A stretch of 64,000 nucleotides of DNA from Parapedobacter pyrenivorans (GTDB taxonomy: Bacteria > Bacteroidota > Bacteroidia > Sphingobacteriales > Sphingobacteriaceae), in the NCBI RefSeq assembly GCF_014636865.1, contig NZ_BMER01000001.1:856718-920717 (forward strand), given 5' to 3'. Under the pieces are notes generated by a model. That model was not told where the DNA came from. It made no database searches and saw nothing but the letters and a program-made list of their open reading frames with translations. How positions within the stretch are numbered: position 1 is the stretch's first letter; each line of letters opens with the position of its first letter. Shown piece by piece: positions 50,434 to 64,000 of this stretch. The position numbers and the translations under genes are program-made.

Positions 50434-51513
50434 TTAGCGCTTCCCGATTTCAGCAAACAGCGCCTTGAAGCAAGCGGTTTCACTTTCCGCCGCCGGCGGC
50501 TTAATGCCGTAAAATTCATCGAGAAACGAATCGGCACCAGACCAGACGGTTTGCATCAGGCCACCGAAACGGGGGGCCATCTCTGTAGTTGCCTGCTGCC
50601 TGAAACTGACCATATCCTGCAATTGTGCCGTCGCTACAGCTCCCTTTTTCCAAGGGCAGGTTACCACAGAAAAACCCTTCATGGCAAAATATACGGCAGT
50701 CTGCAGGGGTTGATCGTAATGCCAGTCGCAGATCATCACTCCCTTATTGATCAGGTCTATCGCCCGATGGGTATTGTTCATGCTGGCTTCCCACATGCCG
50801 ATTCCGGTCATCTTGCCGTCGATGAGGCGGTCGCCCCACATCCAGAGCTGGCGATCCGTCCTCGCCAAATGGTCCGCAATCTTGTTGACCTCGTTGGCAT
50901 ACAACTCAGCCTTATCCCTACCCGCACAACGCGCGCAGCTATCATGGCCGATATAAAACACTTCATCCATGCCCGCATGGAAGGCGTCGGTTTCGAAAAC
51001 ATCGCAGATTTCATCGACCAAATCAAAGACCACGTCGTGCACTTCGGGGTGCAGCGGGCAATAGCTCTTACAGTACAGCCCATCGGCGTTAGGCCACTCG
51101 TACTCCACAGGCATTTCCACATGGGGGGTCTCATCAAACTGTGGATATACCGTGAGTAATTTCCCGGCTTTACCGGCCCAGGATTGGTGGCCAAGCAGAT
51201 TGATCTGTGGGATGATGCGAATGGCGTTTTTCTGGCAGACCGCCACCAGTTGTTTAACCTCCGCTTTGGATAATGCAGCTTCATCACGCAGTTCGGGCCG
51301 ACTTTCAAACTCGTAATTGTAGTCTATCCGTAACACCAACGTATTCACCCCCCTTGGCGCCAGTTCCTCATCAATGAAGTTAACAAATTCGAGCAACCGA
51401 TCAGGGCTCGGTGCAGCGATACAAAAACCCCTGACGGAAAGCTGGCTTTGGCCGTAAGCGATTTGACAAACAAACAAAGCCAAGCATACGAAAGTAGAAT
51501 TGATTATATGCAT
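50434..51513 (-). CDS. GH20-like secreted glycoside hydrolase
   Basis: A 359-residue protein with a signal peptide (ends IAYGQ). The TIM barrel resembles GH20 hexosaminidases: NTLVLRIDYNYEFE, IRIIPQINLLGHQSWAG, and FHAGMDEVFYIGHDSC, which carries the Asp-Glu pair typical of the family. It is shorter than classic GH20 because the usual N-terminal domain is missing. It lies 2 bp after the hybrid regulator of PUL 2 and is probably its last gene. Family fit is good, enzyme specificity unproven. Confidence 0.8.
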   Translation of the reverse strand: MHIINSTFVCLALFVCQIAYGQSQLSVRGFCIAAPSPDRLLEFVNFIDEELAPRGVNTLVLRIDYNYEFESRPELRDEAALSKAEVKQLVAVCQKNAIRIIPQINLLGHQSWAGKAGKLLTVYPQFDETPHVEMPVEYEWPNADGLYCKSYCPLHPEVHDVVFDLVDEICDVFETDAFHAGMDEVFYIGHDSCARCAGRDKAELYANEVNKIADHLARTDRQLWMWGDRLIDGKMTGIGMWEASMNNTHRAIDLINKGVMICDWHYDQPLQTAVYFAMKGFSVVTCPWKKGAVATAQLQDMVSFRQQATTEMAPRFGGLMQTVWSGADSFLDEFYGIKPPAAESETACFKALFAEIGKR

Positions 51514-51515
51514 AG

Positions 51516-54500
51516 TTAAAACGAATTGATTTTCTGTGTGAGTACCTGCTGTTGTTCATCGGTATCCAGCGCGGCATACTCGCTTGGCGACTTGCCAAAA
51601 TAGTTTTTGAATGATTTTCCAAAATATTTCGGGTCGCTAAATCCGACTTGATAAGCTATCTGGCTCACGGGAAGGGTGCCTTGGACAAGAAGTTGAGCTG
51701 CTTTCCTAAGCCTGAGCACGTTGATGAGTTCAATAACGCTCAGGTCAGTCATCTGTTTCAATTTGCGGTACAATACAGGTCGGCTCATACCCAATTCACT
51801 GGCCAATGCATTGACGTTGAACTGGGGCTCCGCCAGGTTGTCTTCGATTAGCCTGACGACTTTCCCCAAAAATTGCTGGTCAGTGTCTGGCTCGTGGAGG
51901 GCCTGACGCGGCATAAGCACATAGTCACGGATGAATTTCTTACGGAAGCGTTCGCGCGCCGCTAAACTGTTGCGGATTTTGAGGGAAAGCACGTCGAGAT
52001 AGAAGGGTTTGGTGATGTAATCATCGCTGCCATACCGCAATCCCTCGATGATACTTTCCACGGAAGTCCGCGCTGTGAGCAGCAATACCGGAATGTGATT
52101 GGTAGCTACATGTTGTTTGATTTGCTTCAATAACGATATGCCGTCCGACACAGGCATCATGATGTCGGTAATCACCAAATCGGGCAATTCGGATTTGACC
52201 AACTGCCAACCCTGCAGGCCGTCGGCCGCTTCCATTATGGCATAATCGGTTTCGAGACTACCGGCAATGAGTGTTCGTATCTCGGCATTGTCTTCTACAA
52301 CAAGGATAAGCGGGCGATGTGCGCCCACGCGGTTATCTGCCACCTCATCGGCAATGGCCAGATCAGACACACTGCGATCAGGGAGTGGGGTAGCTCCGCG
52401 ATGGGGGTCTTCGGTATGGCGGCATACGACGTGTCGCTCATCCAGGTATGCGTTGCCCAGTGGAAGCTGTACGGTAAAACAGGTGTATGTGGGCTTGTCA
52501 CTACCATAATAGCTTTCTACAGCAATTTCACCCCCATGCATTTCCGTGACATTTTTTGCGAGCGCTAAACCTATTCCAGAGCCCAAATGCCCCCGCCTTT
52601 GCTCATTACCCGTATGGAGTTGATAGTAAAACTCAAAAATAGATGCCAGTTTGTCATTGGGAATCCCCTTGCCATTATCCCATACGCGAACGATGACTGA
52701 ACCTGCAGCATATTTATCTGTGGGTTCGATTTTTTCGATCGACAGTCTCACGTTACCCCCTACGGGTGCAAATTTGAACGCATTGGAAAGCAAATTGTAA
52801 ATCACCTTTTCCAATTGGTCGACATCGAACCATGCCGCTATGGCTGTAATCGGTTTACTATAATCAAAACGGATATGTTGTTCTTCAGCATAATGTCTAA
52901 ATTCGGCAGCAATCCGGTCAATAAATACGACGAGGTCATGTGATGATACTGCCAGCTTGAAATTACCGCTTTCCTGCTTACGGAAGTCCAGCAATTGATT
53001 GACCAGATTGAGCAGCCGCAGAGAGTTATTTTTCACCGTAACCATCATCGTCCGCGCGTTTTCCTCCAACTTCATATGGGCAAGCAAGTGCTGCACAGGG
53101 GCGAGAATAAGGGTAAGTGGTGTACGGAATTCATGGGAGATACTGGTAAAAAAATTGAGTTTGATTTCGTTGATCTCCTGCTGTCTTTCATTCTCGAGGT
53201 GTTCTAACTGCAATTGATGTTCCAGCCGGCTCCTGATCTTGGTAAACCGGACAATCACATACAAGGCGGTTGTTACCAATGCTGCATAGCAAAGATATGC
53301 CCACCAGGTTTTCCATGGGGGAGGTAATATTTTAATCGTCAACCTGTTCGGCACTTCATTCCAAATGCCATCGTTGCTGGAACCCTTTGCCAACAGGGTA
53401 TATGTACCTGCATGTAGGTTGGTGTAAGTAGCAAAAGGGACATCTACATAGTTCCATTGATTTTCCAATCCATCCAGGCGGTAAGCGTATCTATTCTTTT
53501 CGGGGAGCACAAAGTTGAGTGCCGAAAATTCTACGGTAAAGATATTTTGAGCATGGTTGAGTACAATTGTATCGGTTATCGAAATGGGCTTTTCCAAGAT
53601 GGTGCTACTCCCCGGCACCACCGATTGGTTGAACAATCGAAAATCGGTAAACACAATCGGTGGGATGTAGCTGCTTACACTGAAATCCCGCGGATGAAAA
53701 GAAGTAAGTCCATGTGAGCCGCCAAAAACCAGCTGGCCATCCGAGGTTTTGCAGTAAGCACCGATGGAAAATTCATTGCCACCGATACCATCCTTGGTAT
53801 TGTAGGATTTGACAACACCGGATATGGGGTCAAAGCAACAGATGCCGTTATTGGTACTCAGCCATAGTTGGCCGCGATTGTCCTCCAAAATACCGAAAAT
53901 ATTATTGCCGGGTAGGCCCTCCCGGTCTGAAATACGATTGAATTCCCCCGTATCAAAATGATATTGATTCAATCCATTTTTATAGGTACCAAACCACACC
54001 CGGCGTTGACTGTCTTCGAAGATACTGATGATGATATTGCCGCTGATACTTTTGGAGTCGTCAAGCGAAAACCGAAAAACCTCAAAGTGGTCTGTCCCTG
54101 CCCGCCTAAGGTTTAATCCATCCTCTGTGCCTACCCACAGGTTGCCACGGCTATCTGTGAAAACGGTCCGTACCAGATCGGAGCTGATGTGGTAACGGCC
54201 TGTCTTGGCCGCTCGGTAGCTCTCAAATTGCAGATTACGGCCCGGTTTTTTTAGATTAAGCCCCCCACCGTACGTGCCAAACCACAGATTTCCCTGTCCA
54301 TCTTCTTTTATTGCATAGACGTTGTTGTTAGATAGCGAATGAGAGACCGACGGATCATGCCGAATATGCTGGAATATTTGGGTTCCTTTCTTTAGCAAAT
54401 TCACTCCTCCGGCATAGGTACCTACCCACAAATTGCCTTGCGTGTCGAGATGCAAGGATTTGACGTGATTGTGGCTTAGTGAGCCCGGATCCTTTGGATT

Positions 54501-55757
54501 GTGTTTGAAATGATAGGATACCTGGCCAGAACGGTTCATGTAATTCAATCCGCCACCTTCGGTACCTACCCATAGATTTTGATTATTATCCTCCAAAATG
54601 CCGCTCACTACATTATAGCTCAAGCTGCTCACGTATGGACTGTGGGTGTAGTTTTGGAAAGTGGGAATATGCCGATCAAAGACACATACACCACCATAAT
54701 AAGTACCTATCCAAACTGATCCGCGCGTATCTTGAAAAATGGGCCTTATGGAATTGTTGCTGAGTGAAAACTGGTCGTAATCATTGGCCAGATAGGTTAA
54801 GAATCCATTTTCTTTCGTGTAATAGTTCAGACCATTGATGGTGCCTATCCAGTAGCCGCCGAAGCGATCTTTAAGAATCGACCGCACGTCGTTGCTGGCC
54901 AGCGACAGCCCGTTGGCTTGTGGCTGATGGGTAAGGTATTCAAACCTACCGGTATGGGTATCGTACACGTTGATGCCGCCCTCCTTGGTTCCAAACCAAA
55001 AAATACCGTCGGCGACTTCTTGTACAACCCGCACGTCATCGCTATTCAACTCGCCGGTACGATGCCGGAAGTGACGGGTAAGCCTCAGCGAACGCCCGCG
55101 CTGATACGGGTCAAAAATCAATACACCATTAACCGTGCTTAGCCAAATGTTCCCATCATCATCTTCGTAGAATGACTGGACATTATTACATCCCATCGGC
55201 ACATGTTGTTCGCTGTACATAGTGGCATCGAAGACCAGTGTGAGCTGCCCGGGGCTTGCTTTGTCATCGAGGCAATACAACCCTTGAGAGGTAGCAAACC
55301 ACACCCGCCCCCGACGGTCCTCAACGATAGCCGATACGATCGGTTCCGACAGGCGGTTGCCTGATTGATTGTTGACGAGCGGAAACCGCACGAAGCGGTC
55401 CCGGTTCCTATCGTAACAATTAACGCCAGCGCTGGTGCCCACCCATAACCGCTTTTTGCTATCTTCCAGGAGTGACAGGATGTAATTGTCGGTGAGCGAG
55501 GTAGTATCCGACGGGGTATTCCGATAGGTAATAAACGTTCGCGCATCGTACCGGTTCAGTCCATCTCTTGTGCCCACCCACATGAAGCCGAGGTAGTCTT
55601 GGCAAAGTGAGAACACACTGCTTTGCGACAGCCCCTCCCGAAGCCCGATGCGTGTAAACTTCGCAGGTCCTTCCACGGTTTGGCCAAATCCCAGGCTTCC
55701 GTACAACAACAGCGCGGCAAGAAAGCAGAAACGTACGGCAACGGCGTGCATCGTCAA
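51516..55757 (-). CDS. Hybrid two-component system (propeller sensor, kinase, receiver, AraC)
   Basis: A 1413-residue one-protein signalling system. After a signal peptide come ~14 two-component propeller repeats (for example LCQDYLGFMWVGTRDGLNRY) up to ~residue 720, then a Y_Y_Y domain, one membrane helix (~815-835), HisKA (ISHEFRTPLTLILAP), HATPase (NLLSNAFKFAP, GSGIGLALAKNV), a receiver with phospho-Asp in DLVITDIMMPVSDG, and a C-terminal AraC-type HTH. It senses an oligosaccharide in the periplasm and activates the neighbouring PUL. It lies within the PUL transcript order, 40 bp after GH88. Confidence 0.97.
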   Translation of the reverse strand: MTMHAVAVRFCFLAALLLYGSLGFGQTVEGPAKFTRIGLREGLSQSSVFSLCQDYLGFMWVGTRDGLNRYDARTFITYRNTPSDTTSLTDNYILSLLEDSKKRLWVGTSAGVNCYDRNRDRFVRFPLVNNQSGNRLSEPIVSAIVEDRRGRVWFATSQGLYCLDDKASPGQLTLVFDATMYSEQHVPMGCNNVQSFYEDDDGNIWLSTVNGVLIFDPYQRGRSLRLTRHFRHRTGELNSDDVRVVQEVADGIFWFGTKEGGINVYDTHTGRFEYLTHQPQANGLSLASNDVRSILKDRFGGYWIGTINGLNYYTKENGFLTYLANDYDQFSLSNNSIRPIFQDTRGSVWIGTYYGGVCVFDRHIPTFQNYTHSPYVSSLSYNVVSGILEDNNQNLWVGTEGGGLNYMNRSGQVSYHFKHNPKDPGSLSHNHVKSLHLDTQGNLWVGTYAGGVNLLKKGTQIFQHIRHDPSVSHSLSNNNVYAIKEDGQGNLWFGTYGGGLNLKKPGRNLQFESYRAAKTGRYHISSDLVRTVFTDSRGNLWVGTEDGLNLRRAGTDHFEVFRFSLDDSKSISGNIIISIFEDSQRRVWFGTYKNGLNQYHFDTGEFNRISDREGLPGNNIFGILEDNRGQLWLSTNNGICCFDPISGVVKSYNTKDGIGGNEFSIGAYCKTSDGQLVFGGSHGLTSFHPRDFSVSSYIPPIVFTDFRLFNQSVVPGSSTILEKPISITDTIVLNHAQNIFTVEFSALNFVLPEKNRYAYRLDGLENQWNYVDVPFATYTNLHAGTYTLLAKGSSNDGIWNEVPNRLTIKILPPPWKTWWAYLCYAALVTTALYVIVRFTKIRSRLEHQLQLEHLENERQQEINEIKLNFFTSISHEFRTPLTLILAPVQHLLAHMKLEENARTMMVTVKNNSLRLLNLVNQLLDFRKQESGNFKLAVSSHDLVVFIDRIAAEFRHYAEEQHIRFDYSKPITAIAAWFDVDQLEKVIYNLLSNAFKFAPVGGNVRLSIEKIEPTDKYAAGSVIVRVWDNGKGIPNDKLASIFEFYYQLHTGNEQRRGHLGSGIGLALAKNVTEMHGGEIAVESYYGSDKPTYTCFTVQLPLGNAYLDERHVVCRHTEDPHRGATPLPDRSVSDLAIADEVADNRVGAHRPLILVVEDNAEIRTLIAGSLETDYAIMEAADGLQGWQLVKSELPDLVITDIMMPVSDGISLLKQIKQHVATNHIPVLLLTARTSVESIIEGLRYGSDDYITKPFYLDVLSLKIRNSLAARERFRKKFIRDYVLMPRQALHEPDTDQQFLGKVVRLIEDNLAEPQFNVNALASELGMSRPVLYRKLKQMTDLSVIELINVLRLRKAAQLLVQGTLPVSQIAYQVGFSDPKYFGKSFKNYFGKSPSEYAALDTDEQQQVLTQKINSF

Positions 55758-55797: not shown

Positions 55798-56988
55798 TTA
55801 GTCGAGTTTACGCAAACCTGAAAGCTCCCGCCTCCGCAAGAGCGCCTCCAGAAAGTAGTAATCGGCATAAATCAGTGGCACATCAACCTCCGAATCCGCA
55901 GGCTTCGACCCGGTACTGTGTAGCAAGATAAATCCGCTGTGGGTACCTGTACGAGCGGTAGAGGCCGCGGCAAGGTTACGGACAATACCGTCCGCAAAGC
56001 TGTGGAATGTGTCAGCTGCTGAATCGAAGGTGCTAAGCTCATATAGCGCTGAAGCGATAACGGCTGCCGCAGAAGCGTCTCGGGGTTCATCAGGAATGCC
56101 CGGTGCGTCGAAATCCCAATAAGGAATACCATCTGACGGCATATGGGAATGCGTCATCAGCCATCGGGCAACGGCTATCGCTTTGTCCAGATAACGCTTA
56201 TCTTTCGTTTCCCGATAACACATCGTATAACCGTATAATGCCCATGCCTGTCCCCTTGCCCATGTCGATTCGTCGGCATAGCCCTGATGGGTATTACGGT
56301 GTTGAATCTCGCCCGTTTGAGGATTGTAATCGATAACATGGTATGTACCGCCATCGGGGCGAAAGTGATTTCTCAACGTGGTATTGGCATGCGACACGGC
56401 GATATGATAGAAGGAGGAATCCCCTGTAAGCCGTGTAGCCGCGAACAGCAACTCCAGGTTGAGCATATTATCGATGATGACGGGGAAGTCCCAACGGTGG
56501 CTGTTGTGATCCCAGGACCTGAGGCAACCCACTACGGGATTGAATCGCGTAGACAGTGTCTGCGCCGCCTGAATGATGACTTTCCGGTACGCGCTGTCGC
56601 CGGTGAGGTGATAACCGTTACCGAAGCTGCAATAGATTTTGAACCCCATATCGTGGGTACGCCCGTTGTATTTTTCACTTTCCAGCTTCGTTGTAGCTTC
56701 CCGTGCCGCCTCCAGCCATTTGCCATCGTTCGTAGTTGCATATAACTGCCACAATATTCCCGGGAAAAAGCCACTCGTCCAGTCGCTGGCCGGCACCAGC
56801 ACCAACCGGCCAGCGGTATCCAATGTACGGGGAGACACCCGGCCATCGGCGGCGAGCCGCTGGGTTTCCGCCAACAGCAAGGTGACCTGTTCTTCACTGT
56901 AGCGGATGATCCGATCCACGTCGACCTCCTGTGAGCGGCCAACGTGGGTGAGGAGCAACGCGATTCCCATGATGAGTGTTGTCTTCAT
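55798..56988 (-). CDS. GH88 unsaturated glucuronyl hydrolase
   Basis: A 396-residue secreted enzyme (signal peptide ends GRSQ) of family GH88. It hydrates the C4-C5 double bond of terminal unsaturated uronic acid left by lyases. Catalytic-region motifs are DWTSGFFPGILWQLY, THDMGFKIYCSFG and FPVIIDNMLNLELL, with WARGQAWALYGY near the end; the conserved Asp residues of HDMGF and IIDN are present. It sits between the PUL lipoprotein and the hybrid regulator, in keeping with a lyase-based pathway. Confidence 0.96.
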   Translation of the reverse strand: MKTTLIMGIALLLTHVGRSQEVDVDRIIRYSEEQVTLLLAETQRLAADGRVSPRTLDTAGRLVLVPASDWTSGFFPGILWQLYATTNDGKWLEAAREATTKLESEKYNGRTHDMGFKIYCSFGNGYHLTGDSAYRKVIIQAAQTLSTRFNPVVGCLRSWDHNSHRWDFPVIIDNMLNLELLFAATRLTGDSSFYHIAVSHANTTLRNHFRPDGGTYHVIDYNPQTGEIQHRNTHQGYADESTWARGQAWALYGYTMCYRETKDKRYLDKAIAVARWLMTHSHMPSDGIPYWDFDAPGIPDEPRDASAAAVIASALYELSTFDSAADTFHSFADGIVRNLAAASTARTGTHSGFILLHSTGSKPADSEVDVPLIYADYYFLEALLRRRELSGLRKLD

Positions 56989-57000
56989 AGATCAAGATCG

Positions 57001-57516
57001 CTATTCAATGGTTAATGTTCGCCTGAAAGCCGTTGAGAAGATATCGACGCGGTAATCCGGCGTGATATTATCCTCAAAATTGATTTCGACCACGCGTGTC
57101 CCCGGTTCTGGATTGTTGAGCAATTTCACATACACCGCGCCCGTAGCTTTTTTGGCTTGTGGGAACGTGATGGAATATTTGCCGTCGCTATTGGGCTGTA
57201 TGGTATTTCCATCACTGTCTACTAGCTCGAAATCCACGCCCAAGACGGCCGGATTGGGTACATCGGGTGTCACCACAGCATAGTGGGCCACGGCATCGTA
57301 GCCCCGTGTGAATGACGAATAAAATTGTACCGGGAATTTCACCAATTCGGCCTGACTTCTATTCACCGTCACTGCACTGTTATTATTGGGCACATACACG
57401 ATGTAATAATGGTGTTCGTATTCCGGCAGACCCGCGGGATAATCCTTGTCCTCGCAGGCAAAAAACAATCCGCCTGCCACCATGAGCAAAGTAATCAATA
57501 TATTTCGTGTTTTCAT
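57001..57516 (-). CDS. Small PUL-associated lipoprotein
   Basis: A 171-residue lipoprotein from the ATG at 57516 (lipobox LFFACEDKD). It is mainly beta: a first half with HHYYIVYVPNNNSAVTVNRS and a second with KYSITFPQAKKATGAVYVKL, resembling the DUF1735/DUF4843-like group that accompanies SusD. It lies 12 bp before GH88 and 8-20 bp after SusD and is probably a surface glycan-binding protein. The exact family is not certain. Confidence 0.75.
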   Translation of the reverse strand: MKTRNILITLLMVAGGLFFACEDKDYPAGLPEYEHHYYIVYVPNNNSAVTVNRSQAELVKFPVQFYSSFTRGYDAVAHYAVVTPDVPNPAVLGVDFELVDSDGNTIQPNSDGKYSITFPQAKKATGAVYVKLLNNPEPGTRVVEINFEDNITPDYRVDIFSTAFRRTLTIE

Positions 57517-57535
57517 TGTCGTTATCATTTTATGG

Positions 57536-59200
57536 TTATTGCCAATTTGGATTCTGTACTACGCTTCCACCACTTAGTGTAATCTCATTGAATGGTATCG
57601 GGTAGCGGTAGTCCCGATCAGTATTAAACGAGCGGACATTGGTATCTTCGACAATCAATACGCCATCATCGTTGATATTCAACGTGGACGGATCGGCTCC
57701 CACCCAATCTTCCGCGTCAAACTTGGCGCCGAGCAATTGCCCACCCAACTGAACCTCGGCCGTTTTCCAGCGGATAAGGTCGTCGTAACGGAATCCCTCC
57801 AAGGCGAGTTCAACGGTCCGCTCGCGGCGGATCTCTTCACGCATATCCAGGTTGTTGGCCTCAGCAAACGCGTTGGTCAAACGCGCTTCGAAACCAGCCC
57901 GCTGCCGTAGCGCATTGATGGTGAGGTCGAGGTCGGCATCGCTGATGGCGCCGTCCAATTCGTATTTCGCCTCGGCGTAGATCAATAACACCTCCCCATA
58001 GCGGATGAGGATTTTATCTACCGTACCTGCGCCATTGGTTTGCCAATCTTCGACATTGAACCCCTTCTTGGCGGCATAGGCCGAACGCGAACCGAGAGTG
58101 GTTGTCGGCACCCATGGTCCTTTGTACGCCTGCTCTTCAGCTTGGAAAAGCGTCATGGCCAAGCGGGGGTCGCGGTTTTCGAAGATGGCATTATAGCTAT
58201 CTTCTTCGCCTTCTTCCACGAAATGCACAGAACGTGTTGCCGAGGGTTGGTTTTGCCCATTAAAGGCCGGCAAGCCATCCGTATAGAGGTATTGGCGTAC
58301 CAGATTCCGTGTCGGTGCATTCCGCCCATTTTCCATGTCGCGGGAATAGTTGTGGCCCACAATCAGGTTGGAAGGGCTCACGCCATAGGTTTTCACGAAG
58401 ATGTTTTCCGTGTTGGAAGGCCCTTCGGCTTCATGCTGGAAAAGCCCGTCATACGTGGGATAAAGTTGATGGCCCTCGGCCATGACCGCCTGCGCGGCCT
58501 GTACAGCATTATTGAGGTGCGGCTGCCAATCGCCATCGTTGTGGAATTTGGCACGTGTACCCACATATAGCGCCACGCGTGCCTTTAATGCCAGCGCACT
58601 GCTTTTGGTAGCCCGGCCATATTGGTTTCCGGGCAGTTCATGATGGCTGGGTAACCATTGGGCGGCAAAATCGAGGTCATCATAGATCGCTTGGATAACT
58701 TCGGCCTTGGGCGTACGTGGCATGGTCAGCTCCGGCGCATCGGTATCCAGTGTTTTCAGCAGCAGGGGTACATCGCCGTACTTCTGCACGAGACCGAAAT
58801 AGGCACTTGCCCTGAAAAAGCGGGCTTCACCGAAATAGCGGTTTTTGACTTCGTCGGAAACCTGCGCCTTTACGCCCTTCTCCAGGATGTTGTTTGCGGT
58901 AAAGATATCGCGGTATGGGTCGCTCCAATCGCCGCTCGTATTGGGTATGGTGCGGGTGCCATTGCTGACACTATTGGCGGTTTGGTTCACGTTATCATCG
59001 CCACGCGCATCCAGTTGAAATCCGGCCAATAGCTGATAATGCCGGTTGGTTGCATTCATCAGATCGGTTTCCGTGTTCCAGAAATCCACATCGCTAAACT
59101 GCGTTTCCGGGAAGCGATCCAAGCTACAGCTGCCAACAAGCGATAGCGCACATAAGGATGAAATCCAGATCAAACTTTTGGTCTTATTGGGATAATTCAT
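57536..59200 (-). CDS. RagB/SusD-family lipoprotein of PUL 2
   Basis: A 554-residue lipoprotein (lipobox LVGSCSLDRF) of standard SusD length. Typical motifs are FFRASAYFGLVQKYGDVPL near residue 135, RYGEVLLIYAEAKYEL toward the C-terminus, and ERTVELALEGFRYDDLIRW near the end, closing with a WQ terminus. It caps the SusC barrel located 12 bp upstream. Binding specificity is not visible. Confidence 0.96.
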   Translation of the reverse strand: MNYPNKTKSLIWISSLCALSLVGSCSLDRFPETQFSDVDFWNTETDLMNATNRHYQLLAGFQLDARGDDNVNQTANSVSNGTRTIPNTSGDWSDPYRDIFTANNILEKGVKAQVSDEVKNRYFGEARFFRASAYFGLVQKYGDVPLLLKTLDTDAPELTMPRTPKAEVIQAIYDDLDFAAQWLPSHHELPGNQYGRATKSSALALKARVALYVGTRAKFHNDGDWQPHLNNAVQAAQAVMAEGHQLYPTYDGLFQHEAEGPSNTENIFVKTYGVSPSNLIVGHNYSRDMENGRNAPTRNLVRQYLYTDGLPAFNGQNQPSATRSVHFVEEGEEDSYNAIFENRDPRLAMTLFQAEEQAYKGPWVPTTTLGSRSAYAAKKGFNVEDWQTNGAGTVDKILIRYGEVLLIYAEAKYELDGAISDADLDLTINALRQRAGFEARLTNAFAEANNLDMREEIRRERTVELALEGFRYDDLIRWKTAEVQLGGQLLGAKFDAEDWVGADPSTLNINDDGVLIVEDTNVRSFNTDRDYRYPIPFNEITLSGGSVVQNPNWQ

Positions 59201-59211
59201 GGTCGTACAGA

Positions 59212-62200
59212 TTAAAAGGTGAGGTTTAAACCAAAGGAAAATGAACGATAAAACGGATAGGTAGTCGCGCCTGTGTTATTGCCCACTTCCGGATCGAATA
59301 CACGCAACACATCCGTTTTTTCCCAGAGGTCCTGCCCAGAAAAATAAATCCGCAACCGTTGGATACCAGTCCATCGGATCGGCACGGTGTATCCCAGTTG
59401 GAGGTTCTTCAGCCGGATATACGTACCGTTTTGTGCCCAACGATCGGACGATCGGTAATTGTGTGCACTGGTCTGGTACATCCGCGGGAAATAGGCATCC
59501 GGGTTTTCGGGTGTCCACCGATCCATGTGGATGGTCCAGGGCATATCTGCTGTACCCAACATCGGGGAAAGCGTGCCTTCGTTGATGAGAAAGCTGCGCT
59601 TCGCGGCACCTTGGAAAAATATGGAGAAATCGAAGTTTTTCCAGTTGAAACCTAAGTCCAGGCCATACGTATAACGCGCATTGGTGGTACCCAGATACAC
59701 CAAGTCGCCCGGATTCTCGGGTGTGCCTTCGCCGGCATTGATGCTACCGTCACCGTCGACATCCAGGTACTTAATATCTCCTGCGCCGGCATTCCCTGGA
59801 AAAAAGGGTGTGGTAACTTGCTGTTTATAAGCTTCATATTCTTCGTTGGTTTGGAAAAAACCATCCGTGCGGTATCCCCAAACGCTATTGAGCGGATACC
59901 CTTCCAATAAATTGACGACACCGCCATTACCGATGGAGTTACGGCCGTCATACCGCACAAGTTCATTTTGGTTGTCTGAAATATTAAAGCCGATCCGGTA
60001 ATCGAAACTATTGATCCGATCCCGCCACCGCACATCAAACTCCCACCCCCAACTTTTCAGCTCACCGATGTTCATGGAGGGCACGTTCACGCCGATGAGG
60101 TTAGGGAGGTTTAATTCAGCCAACATATCCTTATTCCGTTTTACATAATAATCGGCCGTAAGCGTTAATCGATCACGTAGGAATCCGGCGTCTACACCGA
60201 TATTAGACTGTTGTACCGTTTCCCACGTCTTTTGGGGTGAGGCTAGCTGATTTTGGAAGAAATACTGTGTACGAATATCGTTGAACACCAAGTTGGATTG
60301 GTTAGTAACGGTGAGCCCGCTGGTTAAGAGTGCGATGTAGTCATACAGCCCCAGCACGGCCCCATTGCCTAATTGGCCCCAAGAGCCCCGGAGCTTAAGT
60401 GCGGAGATTACCGACTGATTTTGCATAAAATCTTCCTGATCGATACGCCAAGCCGCAGAAAACGAAGGAAACAATTGCCACCGGTTTTCAGGTGCTAATC
60501 GTGAGCTGCCATCATGCCGGAAAGAGGCCTCCAGTAGGTATTTTTCCCGAAAGTTATAGTTGAGGCGACCAAAGAACGAGCCGATTGCCCAGGTTTCCAC
60601 CAGATCCTTATTGGTCTTTGTCAACGGGTCTGCGAAGTTAAAGCTGAAGAAATCATTGGTAATCATCGACTGCGCACCTGCCGAAAACTCGTCCTTGCGG
60701 TACTCTTCAAAGGAAGCACCGCCCAGTAGGGTAAAGTGATGTGCATCGGCTAATGACAGGTTGTAGGTAAATACACCTTGAAGGTTATTGTGGTATCCCC
60801 GGTTTTTCACCATGGCCTTGGTGTTTGGGTCGTGAATGCGGAACCGCACGGTATTGGTACTCCGTCCATACCAAAGCAAGGTACGGCTGTCGTTCTCCAT
60901 GGAGTAATAGTCCTGGTTACGCCAGCCGGACAAGTCGAATGTCAGCCCTTTAACAAGGTTTTGCACTTTGAGATTCAGCCGTCCGGTAAAGGATTCATAA
61001 TACCGTTGTTCCAAACCGGCATTTTTCTCGATATCCACCGCATTGATCTGGAGGTCGCCGTTGTAAGGCTGGCCAGTAATGTCCTCTTCGGGCACATACA
61101 GGCTTTGGCGGGCCCGGCTGCGGTAAAGACGATTGATGATCTGGTCGGTACCATAGGCATTTTCATTGACGATGGAGCCGATATAGCCCGCCACGACCTC
61201 TACACTTAGGTACTTGTTGAGCTCGGCATTAATGTTGGCTTTCAGGTTATATCGCGAATTATCATCAGGCCCGTAGCGAAGTACTCCATCGCGCTTATAA
61301 TAACCGCCGGACACCAGGTAATTCATCTTATCCGTGCCGCCACCCAAAGAAAGGGTATGGTTTTGCATGGAATTTACTTTGTCCATCCCTTCTTTCAGCC
61401 AATTGTTGTTGCCAAAGTATTCCCAGCGGTCCTGTGTGGGGTTGGGACGTACGGAGAAGTTGGGATTGCTCACCCACTCCAGTTGCTCTTCGCTAAACTC
61501 GGGGTTTCCGGTGGCGTTCCGGCGTGATTCATCGATGAGAATCTGCTCGTCCCATGAATTAAGTCGCTCGGGTTGGCGGGCGGTCACGTTGATTCCATAG
61601 TAGCTATTGAAATTTATGCGTGTTTTTCCAGCGGTACCCTTTTTGGTAGTGATTAAGACAACGCCTCCTGCAGCCCGTGCACCGTAGATCGCGGAAGCTG
61701 AAGCATCCTTCAACACCGAAATGGATTCGATGTCATCTGGGTTCAGCAGGTTCATGTCCATTTGGATGCCATCCACCAGCACCAATGCATTGGTGGCATT
61801 GGATGAGGAGAATCCACGGACGCGGATACCATAACCCTCTGCTCCAGGCTTACCGCTGCCCCTTACCACGGTTACTCCAGGGGCAACACCCTGCAAAGCG
61901 CCAGTGACATTGGCTACCGGTCTGTTCATCAAGGCATCTCCACTGATTTGTGCCACCGCACCGGTGAGGTTTACTTTCTTTTGTGTGCCGTAACCGACCA
62001 CGACCACTTCATCCAAAGCCGACACATCCTCCTCGAGGATGACGTCGATGGTTGCGCGGTTGTTGATGGCGATTTCCTGCGGCGCACTGCCCAACAAAGT
62101 AAACACCAGTACGGCATCGCCCGCGGTGCCGATTCGGTAGTTGCCTTGGGCATCCGATGCCGTAGCCGTACCGGCACCTTTTACCGTCACACTGACGCCC

Positions 62201-62337
62201 GGCGCAGGCGTGCCGTCTTGGAAGCGGACTTTTCCGGTCACGGTGATGGGCGATTGTGCGTAGGCCAAGCCAGCCCAACCTACCAACAGCGCGATTACGA
62301 AACCGTAGCTTCGTCTTTTTGTAAAACGTTTGCTCAT
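59212..62337 (-). CDS. SusC/RagA-family TonB-dependent transporter of PUL 2
   Basis: A 1041-residue outer-membrane barrel. Signal peptide (ends AYAQ), regulatory-like domain (GKVRFQDGTPAPGVSVTVKG), TonB-box-like ALDEVVVVGYGTQKKVNLTG, plug motifs LVLVDGIQMDMN and SVLKDASASAIYGARAAGG, and an aromatic C-terminus FGLNLTF. All SusC features are complete. A -7 box TACTTTTG lies 42 bp before the ATG. Confidence 0.97.
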   Translation of the reverse strand: MSKRFTKRRSYGFVIALLVGWAGLAYAQSPITVTGKVRFQDGTPAPGVSVTVKGAGTATASDAQGNYRIGTAGDAVLVFTLLGSAPQEIAINNRATIDVILEEDVSALDEVVVVGYGTQKKVNLTGAVAQISGDALMNRPVANVTGALQGVAPGVTVVRGSGKPGAEGYGIRVRGFSSSNATNALVLVDGIQMDMNLLNPDDIESISVLKDASASAIYGARAAGGVVLITTKKGTAGKTRINFNSYYGINVTARQPERLNSWDEQILIDESRRNATGNPEFSEEQLEWVSNPNFSVRPNPTQDRWEYFGNNNWLKEGMDKVNSMQNHTLSLGGGTDKMNYLVSGGYYKRDGVLRYGPDDNSRYNLKANINAELNKYLSVEVVAGYIGSIVNENAYGTDQIINRLYRSRARQSLYVPEEDITGQPYNGDLQINAVDIEKNAGLEQRYYESFTGRLNLKVQNLVKGLTFDLSGWRNQDYYSMENDSRTLLWYGRSTNTVRFRIHDPNTKAMVKNRGYHNNLQGVFTYNLSLADAHHFTLLGGASFEEYRKDEFSAGAQSMITNDFFSFNFADPLTKTNKDLVETWAIGSFFGRLNYNFREKYLLEASFRHDGSSRLAPENRWQLFPSFSAAWRIDQEDFMQNQSVISALKLRGSWGQLGNGAVLGLYDYIALLTSGLTVTNQSNLVFNDIRTQYFFQNQLASPQKTWETVQQSNIGVDAGFLRDRLTLTADYYVKRNKDMLAELNLPNLIGVNVPSMNIGELKSWGWEFDVRWRDRINSFDYRIGFNISDNQNELVRYDGRNSIGNGGVVNLLEGYPLNSVWGYRTDGFFQTNEEYEAYKQQVTTPFFPGNAGAGDIKYLDVDGDGSINAGEGTPENPGDLVYLGTTNARYTYGLDLGFNWKNFDFSIFFQGAAKRSFLINEGTLSPMLGTADMPWTIHMDRWTPENPDAYFPRMYQTSAHNYRSSDRWAQNGTYIRLKNLQLGYTVPIRWTGIQRLRIYFSGQDLWEKTDVLRVFDPEVGNNTGATTYPFYRSFSFGLNLTF

Positions 62338-62443: not shown

Positions 62444-64000
62444 TCAGAACCATAATAGTGGATGGCGTAAGGGAAGATTCCGTATCACTTCCGTCTCGGA
62501 GGGGTGGTGTTCCAGCGATGACCAGGTATTCAGCAACTCCCTATTGCCATAGGCCAGGGCACCCAAAAGGAGAAATGGCTGCGCAACGGGCCAGTTATCC
62601 CAATACATTACGTCCTGCCCGTGTGGCCACTTGCCTTTGTGTTGCATGTAGGGCAGCATATATTGGATTCCTTTTTTTATGGAACGGTCGTTTTCCGTGG
62701 CATAGGTCCAGAGATTTTCCTCCGGACTGGAAAGCAGGTGGCAGATGGTCGCCATCGCGTCGAGGTTAAAGAGCGAATAACCATAAGGCTTGGTGCGTTC
62801 GGTTTCCAATGGAAAGCTTCCGTCATCGGCCATCTGTTTAGGGAGGAGTACCGTTTTATATCGTTCGGCACATTGATGCAGGATGATTTCATTTCCGGTA
62901 TACCGGGCGAAGGCTGCCACTTGCATCACCCAACAGGTTCCATGGTTGTTTTCAGCATTCATTTCTTCGATCCCGTACGGATGGGTGGTGAGCCATGTGA
63001 GGTAGTCTCCGAACCACTGTTTGGTACCCTGAAGCGTCTCGACATTTAGTAATCCCGCATCGGCCAGTATTTTCAGTGCCTGAGCTACCTCAATCAGATG
63101 AATCGTATCGATAATGCCTATCCCTCTTCCGGTGACACGGCCCTTGATGGCTTGGGCGTATGGGAGCGAGGGGTTCATCCGGGTATCGGGGTCGACGAAC
63201 CAAGCCACTATATGCCGCAGGGCGTGGTGGACGTACGTTTCGTCACCCGTGAGTTTCCATGCCGATACCAAGGCACCTACAACGCGGCTGAAACGGATCA
63301 TGGCCAGGCGATGGTCCACAAAATTGTCGGGGTTGGTAACGCCATCCCGACGGATATAAGGCCCATCCGGATTATCTGGATCGGGCCACCAGTAGTCGCC
63401 TTCCGAGTAGAAATCGTGCTTGCTTCCTGCACTGCGTTTGGCGGTGCTGACCGTGACCGTTTCGGGCTGTTGCGAAAGCGCCCATTGCGCATCTTGCAAG
63501 GTTTTTTCGCGTAGCGTTTCGACAACCACGGTTTCGACGGAATCTTGTGGCAATGGTGCGTCTGTGAGCTGCAACACCGACGTTTCCAAGCCATCCACCG
63601 CTGCAGCCACCGCGAGGTTGCTTCCTGTCTGTTTCAACCGGATCATGGCCCTGCCATTATAGGCTTGCACCGTCCGTGAACCATCCGAAGTACCGAGGTC
63701 GGCCAGCATTTTACCATCACCAGCGAGGGAGAAACGGATGTAATCTGCTGCATCCAAGCACAATACACCATTTTCATCGCGCAGCGTTGCCTGGAGGGTA
63801 AGCGTATCGGCATTCGTGCACAATACGTCGAGGTGTATGGTAGCGGGCCTAGACCATTTGGCAGTCTGGTAAACCTGGGTTATGCTGTCTTTTACGGTAA
63901 TGTCCCCTCTTTTTGCGACCACCTCCAATTTATTTTGACCTTCCCGGAACACGACCATCCAACGTAAACCTGCCGCAGGAAAATCCTGGCTGTTGCGCTT
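62444..64000 (-). CDS. GH2-like C-terminal domain fused to an alginate-lyase-type domain (5' end outside window)
   Basis: The frame is open to base 64000, so the protein starts beyond the window; about 518 C-terminal residues are visible. The first ~130 resemble the C-terminal Ig-like part of GH2 beta-galactosidase-type proteins (DFPAAGLRWMVVFREGQN). The rest (from about QDAQWALSQQPETVTV) fits the alginate-lyase-type (alpha/alpha) domain: GDYWWPDPDNPDGPYIRRDG, NAENNHGTCWVMQ and TKPYGYSLFNLDAM, with the usual Asn-His and Tyr. It likely cleaves a uronic-acid polymer by beta-elimination. The upstream GH2 catalytic part must be checked. Confidence 0.85.
   Translation of the reverse strand, partial: KRNSQDFPAAGLRWMVVFREGQNKLEVVAKRGDITVKDSITQVYQTAKWSRPATIHLDVLCTNADTLTLQATLRDENGVLCLDAADYIRFSLAGDGKMLADLGTSDGSRTVQAYNGRAMIRLKQTGSNLAVAAAVDGLETSVLQLTDAPLPQDSVETVVVETLREKTLQDAQWALSQQPETVTVSTAKRSAGSKHDFYSEGDYWWPDPDNPDGPYIRRDGVTNPDNFVDHRLAMIRFSRVVGALVSAWKLTGDETYVHHALRHIVAWFVDPDTRMNPSLPYAQAIKGRVTGRGIGIIDTIHLIEVAQALKILADAGLLNVETLQGTKQWFGDYLTWLTTHPYGIEEMNAENNHGTCWVMQVAAFARYTGNEIILHQCAERYKTVLLPKQMADDGSFPLETERTKPYGYSLFNLDAMATICHLLSSPEENLWTYATENDRSIKKGIQYMLPYMQHKGKWPHGQDVMYWDNWPVAQPFLLLGALAYGNRELLNTWSSLEHHPSETEVIRNLPLRHPLLWF

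Follow-up and report, generated by a model that had tools for sequence, protein, structure and literature searches.

A predicted two-site enzyme joining a GH2 β-glucuronidase-type half to a PL38-type lyase half in a small polysaccharide utilization locus of Parapedobacter pyrenivorans

The window analysed here is a stretch of 64,000 nucleotides from P. pyrenivorans (contig NZ_BMER01000001.1, positions 856,718 to 920,717), and a gene that runs across its right-hand edge was found to encode a GH2 hydrolase and an alginate-lyase-type domain fused in one protein. In the explanation that we consider probable, which is drawn from sequence comparison, the product is a two-site periplasmic enzyme that would act on fragments of a glucuronic-acid glycan, and the fusion would have a single origin.

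The minus-strand frame at 62444-64000 was open up to the window edge, and the preliminary description had read it as the end of a GH2 enzyme joined to an alginate-lyase-type domain. This reading was borne out when the continuation of the contig was fetched (L002). Neither a stop codon nor a separate gene start was present close upstream of the edge, and the frame ran without a stop until a GTG at L002:5743, equivalent to window position 66025. The fused protein is thus 1193 aa long in a single frame with a GTG start, and reading past position 64000 showed a full GH2 catalytic domain in frame, the complete GH2 part covering residues ~23-821. Across the whole chain, Pfam gave the GH2 N-terminal domain, the GH2 middle domain, the GH2_C TIM barrel, DUF4982 and GH2_C5, followed by Alginate_lyase (PF05426) at residues 862-1133 with an E-value of 2.7e-90. 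The N-terminus, VKSIRFITALLPLFVVTISLAQQ, was judged by eye to be signal-peptide-like. The parts of the gene were located as follows.

L002:3719-5743, minus strand, outside the window: remainder of the GH2 half (residues 1-675), with the GTG start at the equivalent of 66025
63563..64000, minus strand: C-terminal part of the GH2 half (residues 676-821), from Pfam, the frame and the model alignment
63548..63562, minus strand: linker, about residues 822-826 (~4-5 residues), with pLDDT under 50 at 822-825
62447..63547, minus strand: PL38-type lyase domain (residues 827-1193), from PF05426, phmmer and the model alignment
62942..62944, minus strand: codon of His1028, counterpart of His243 in the Bacteroides ovatus PL38 alginate lyase BoPL38 by alignment; His in 100/100 rows
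62777..62779, minus strand: codon of Tyr1083, counterpart of BoPL38 Tyr298 by alignment; Tyr in 100/100 rows

An assembly error or a missed stop was ruled out because three other genomes of the genus, each a separate assembly, carry the full-length fusion, and the same frame was found in eight genomes of a second genus. The joining is also taken to be real and heritable because many relatives hold both parts as neighbouring genes.

The hydrolase half is supported as a predicted enzyme of the β-glucuronidase kind, because its nearest solved structures are glucuronidases and because it keeps an Asn-x-Lys pair. Its best match in the PDB was the gut GH2 β-glucuronidase of Parabacteroides merdae (6d7j, 6dxu; 1223 bits, ~61% identity, same fold), and β-glucuronidase 3 of B. 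uniformis (6d1p), also a GH2 enzyme, showed ~57% identity over the whole half and the same fold. Both solved enzymes stop where the fused protein continues into the lyase. When residues 23-822 of a predicted model were superimposed on P. merdae 6dxu, 757 residues were aligned with a Z-score of 44.8 and an rmsd of 2.4. GH2 membership was evident from N-terminal, middle and C-terminal Pfam domains above cut-off and from two catalytic Glu residues. In a BLAST alignment, Glu426 paired with Glu413 of E. coli UidA, and Asn606-Gln-Lys608 paired with UidA Asn566-Lys-Lys568; the same alignment leaves Glu510 unpaired, and we take Glu510 to be the nucleophile from its position and general knowledge of GH2 enzymes. 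The Asn-x-Lys pair binds the carboxylate and is a mark of glucuronidases. Glu426, Glu510, Asn606 and Lys608 were kept in 113/113 GH2 rows, where the same gene is present twice in some cases.

The lyase half is supported as PL38-type, with a predicted activity. In phmmer searches it matched BoPL38 (8bdq) at 5.4e-38 and 3nfv at 1e-63, and at E ≤ 0.01 no solved chain was matched other than 3nfv/3nnb, BoPL38 and BoPL38 variants. The 3nfv/3nnb protein, a single-domain chain deposited as an alginate lyase, is the nearest solved sequence; no paper naming 3NFV was found in the open-licence literature searched. Model residues 827-1193 aligned with BoPL38 9fi0 over 339 residues (Z 31.4, rmsd 3.1). The catalysis of BoPL38 is reported to use Tyr298 and His243 (PMC13169297), and the fused lyase has both the fold and the catalytic His/Tyr of that enzyme (8bdq, 9fi0 and others), so that similarity to a characterised PL38 member and the catalytic pair are found together. 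In contrast, BoPL38 is a single-domain protein with 24% identity in the structural alignment, and it acts on alginate, whereas the cluster of the fused gene points to glucuronic acid. The NNHGTCW motif that had been noted in the C-terminal part lies at residues 1026-1032. Asn1026, Asn1027, His1028, Arg1077 and Tyr1083 were kept in 100/100 lyase rows; the alignments therefore gave no sign of a loss of catalytic residues in the lyase or in the GH2 half. At E ≤ 1e-5, PF05426 has no match in the source genome other than the fused lyase.

The whole protein was modelled with AlphaFold2 from 64 aligned rows, giving a mean pLDDT of 79.6 and a pTM of 0.65. In the model, the last GH2 strand spans residues 816-821 and the first lyase helix residues 827-850, with a pLDDT under 50 at 822-825, so the link between the halves is predicted to be very short. 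At a pTM of 0.65, the model gives no reliable orientation of one active site relative to the other. The rows returned by the structure search were mostly GH2, and further families may lie beyond those listed. Judging the signal peptide and the location by eye, we consider the fused enzyme most likely exported and periplasmic. We also considered whether fusion had moved a lyase that was once a surface lipoprotein into the periplasm; this does not hold in general, since just 9 of the 84 unfused lyases had a lipobox-like start when scored by a crude pattern.

The fused gene leads a cluster on one strand in the order fusion, SusC, SusD, small lipoprotein-like protein, GH88 and a hybrid two-component sensor-regulator (HTCS), as listed here with the gene that follows.

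59212..62337, minus strand: SusC-type TonB-dependent transporter (TIGR04056, 854 bits)
57536..59200, minus strand: SusD-type glycan-binding lipoprotein (PF07980, 1.4e-39)
57001..57528, minus strand: small protein (175 aa) that by eye starts like a lipoprotein and has no confident family
55798..56988, minus strand: GH88 unsaturated glucuronyl hydrolase (PF07470)
51516..55757, minus strand: HTCS (Reg_prop, Y_Y_Y, HisKA, HATPase_c, Response_reg, HTH_18)
50434..51513, minus strand: GH20-like gene, 2 bases past the HTCS (PF00728, 1.8e-14)

Since it combines a SusC/SusD pair with degrading enzymes and with a regulator, all encoded on the same strand, this is a small polysaccharide utilization locus. 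The preliminary description had set a hydrolase-lyase chain next to GH88; the shared cluster is seen in the sequence, but the genes do not adjoin, GH88 being three genes away. The nearest solved chain to this GH88 was 3wiw (1.8e-102), followed by the unsaturated glucuronyl hydrolases 1vd5/2ahf, and its motifs THDMGF and VIIDNM are common to fused GH88 domains. The 175-aa protein keeps its position across the fused clusters examined, and its place after SusD suggests a putative surface glycan-binding protein. The cluster order was constant in the other fused genomes, with GH88 present in 7/12 clusters and absent from 5/12; each of the five genomes with a GH88-less fused cluster had GH88-type genes elsewhere. 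The GH20-like gene lies outside the conserved core, as it had no match downstream of the HTCS in 9/9 other fused clusters examined.

In a phylum sample the fusion was found in 1/395 genomes, the source genome only, and within the genus in 4/9 genomes, the other three (Parapedobacter koreensis, P. defluvii and P. indicus) having proteins with 78-80% identity to that of the window. In the family, where scoring was limited to two candidates per genome, a fusion without a stop was present in 12/399 genomes: the source, three Parapedobacter and eight Sphingobacterium, of which the named ones were S. arenae, S. phlebotomi and S. micropteri. Among named records, the best 80 of at least 588 relatives, which do not sample the whole set, included six fusions. 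Two further kinds of family candidate were rejected. In-frame pairs with one TAA were not taken as read-through fusions, as the GH2 frame stops and the lyase then has its own signal-like start, and among the 8+2 fetched open frames of 1219-1286 aa, GH2 and lyase were separate frames.

In a lyase tree of 88 rows, the 12 fused rows formed one side of a branch with an SH-aLRT of 87. In a GH2 tree of 100 rows, the fused rows and the unfused GH2 of P. soli formed one group with a support of 94, and the P. soli sequence fell among the fused Parapedobacter rows, so that this tree needs two changes. Both were quick trees without bootstrap, and the lyase tree was flagged for long branches meeting. The two trees would be accounted for most simply by a single fusion, with the lyase half lost afterwards in P. 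soli; multiple independent GH2-lyase fusions are unneeded, as the trees fit a single origin. The fusion may have happened in a common ancestor, or may have arisen once and then been transferred between Parapedobacter and Sphingobacterium, and its precursor would be the two genes that stand side by side in many Bacteroidota.

Such neighbours were common. In the phylum sample, 17 other genomes had a lyase with at least 48% identity, and a GH2 homologue lay within about 10 kb in 14 of them; none was found within that distance in G190, G150 and G384. A set of 101 loci, counted after the removal of 13 that repeated another place, comprised 12 fused loci, 75 with both genes unfused on the same strand, 13 with GH2 only and one with the lyase only; the loci were chosen for likeness to the fusion, and the linkage is overstated accordingly. 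The two genes lay within 300 bp of each other in 43 of the 75 unfused loci, and in 19 there was a single in-frame stop between the frames. GH88 was a frequent third partner beside the unfused GH2 and lyase.

These arrangements bear on whether the fusion brings any gain. Both halves could be active and yet have been joined by the accident of one deletion, which we consider somewhat unlikely. One origin is enough for such an event, the 19/75 loci with one stop between the frames make it an easy step, and the unfused GH2 of P. soli inside the fused group shows that the lyase half can be lost. However, both halves are under purifying selection across two genera: in pairs with unsaturated synonymous sites (saturated pairs were left out), the GH2 half had a dN/dS of 0.025-0.118 and the lyase half one of 0.028-0.098, compared to 0.019-0.034 in two unfused control pairs, and these low values indicate that selection still acts on both. 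Partners from the same neighbourhood have also been fused in other combinations elsewhere, which again speaks against an accident. GH88-GH2 fusions were found in five phylum-sample genomes from a different part of the phylum, with the GH88 and GH2 catalytic motifs kept.

L015:1429-5010, minus strand: GH88-GH2 fusion
L017:223-3777, plus strand: GH88-GH2 fusion
L019:301-3852, plus strand: GH88-GH2 fusion
L020:1444-4998, minus strand: GH88-GH2 fusion
L027:217-3327, plus strand: GH88-GH2 fusion

These proteins have the same kind of GH2 and a partner from the same neighbourhood, but their GH88 partner is N-terminal, whereas the lyase partner in the fusion of the window is C-terminal. A bolder proposal, which we regard as doubtful, is that GH2, a PL38-type lyase and GH88 form an old glucuronic-acid unit that selection has repeatedly welded in varying pairs (GH2 with the lyase, GH88 with GH2, and the lyase or GH88 with GH31 or GH29), because it would pay off if one site passed the end it has just exposed or made unsaturated directly to the other; a fusion would then outpace its separate halves, perhaps on a glucuronan-like substrate.

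Several other arrangements were observed in the surveyed loci. A GH31 is fused to the same kind of lyase in Pseudoflavitalea sp. (L144:14043-17306, plus strand), a GH29-type domain is fused to a GH88 domain with 55% identity to the GH88 of the window in G033 (L085:4686-7871, minus strand), and the same kind of GH2 is fused to a DUF4861 domain in G064 (L008:589-3879, minus strand). Sphingobacterium has a GH88-type protein of 922-930 aa (L151:15178-17964, plus strand, with likes in L149, L155, L159, L160 and L172), and the C-terminal ~480 residues of the L151 protein were without a Pfam match. In L040, L041, L042, L043, L048 and L057, a further lyase of this broad kind lies on the other, upstream side of GH2, and a second lyase flanking GH2 at L111:19276-20478 gave a PF05426 match.

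Returning to the two-site enzyme that we favor, we infer both activities, the cell location and the substrate, and the two halves may cut a shared glycan. SusC/SusD would import glycan fragments, which the HTCS would sense. The PL38-type half would carry out β-elimination at a 4-linked uronic acid, leaving a 4,5-unsaturated uronate that the GH88 of the cluster would remove, and the GH2 half would take saturated β-D-glucuronic acid off non-reducing ends. The five fused clusters in which GH88 is absent count against this scheme, although their genomes have GH88-type genes at other loci.

The leading guess for the substrate, and a tentative one, is a simple β-1,4-glucuronan-like chain, since the conserved fused cluster holds no glycosidase other than GH88. 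PL38 members are reported to act on alginate, on glucuronan, or on hyaluronan and chondroitin (PMC13027841, PMC11790493, PMC11381880), and with such diverse substrates family membership does not single one out. GH29, GH31, GH95, GH10, GH3, GH18 or GH30 genes are also present in some unfused clusters, and these extra genes suggest branched, more complex glycans there, which argues against plain glucuronan. The latitude of such guesses is illustrated by the glucuronomannan predicted for a cluster with GH2, GH3 and GH88 (PMC6298971).

A hyaluronan- or chondroitin-like target is unlikely. The lyase would then cut at glucuronic acid, GH88 would take the unsaturated and GH2 the saturated glucuronic acid, and the GH20-like enzyme would take the amino sugar, as the presence of a GH20-like gene behind the HTCS could suggest. 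Activity on hyaluronan and chondroitin has been published for one PL38 enzyme (PMC13027841), and an Akkermansia PL38 is described as assayed on glycosaminoglycans (PMC11790493), but the GH20-like gene is unmatched beside the HTCS in all nine other fused clusters examined. Very unlikely is an exo-acting C-terminal domain, be it an exo-lyase or a dehydratase of oligosaccharides that makes the terminal glucuronic acid unsaturated and so provides two routes for one residue: ulvan dehydratase is reported to act before GH105 on saturated terminal glucuronic acid (PMC8511951) and the five GH88-less fused clusters would fit an exo-lyase that frees unsaturated monomer, but the fold and the catalytic residues match those of BoPL38, an alginate lyase.

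Natural enzyme fusions in such clusters are already known. The open-licence literature that was searched yielded no natural fusion of GH2 with PL38, or of a glucuronidase with a lyase, which is weak evidence that it is unpublished, and the GH2-PL38 pairing may be new. A related case is an engineered Trichoderma chimera of a glucuronan lyase and a chitinase, reported to have lyase and hydrolase both active in a single chain (PMC7601620); in contrast to the fusion described here, it is man-made and its partners are different.

When a hydrolase and a lyase are naturally fused, this points directly to a substrate common to both, and with so small a cluster a trial of a few polymers should suffice to find it. 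The fusion could thereby aid substrate assignment for the thinly characterised PL38 family and for the many unfused pairs in Bacteroidota, and the fused protein is a candidate two-activity enzyme for glucuronic-acid polymers.
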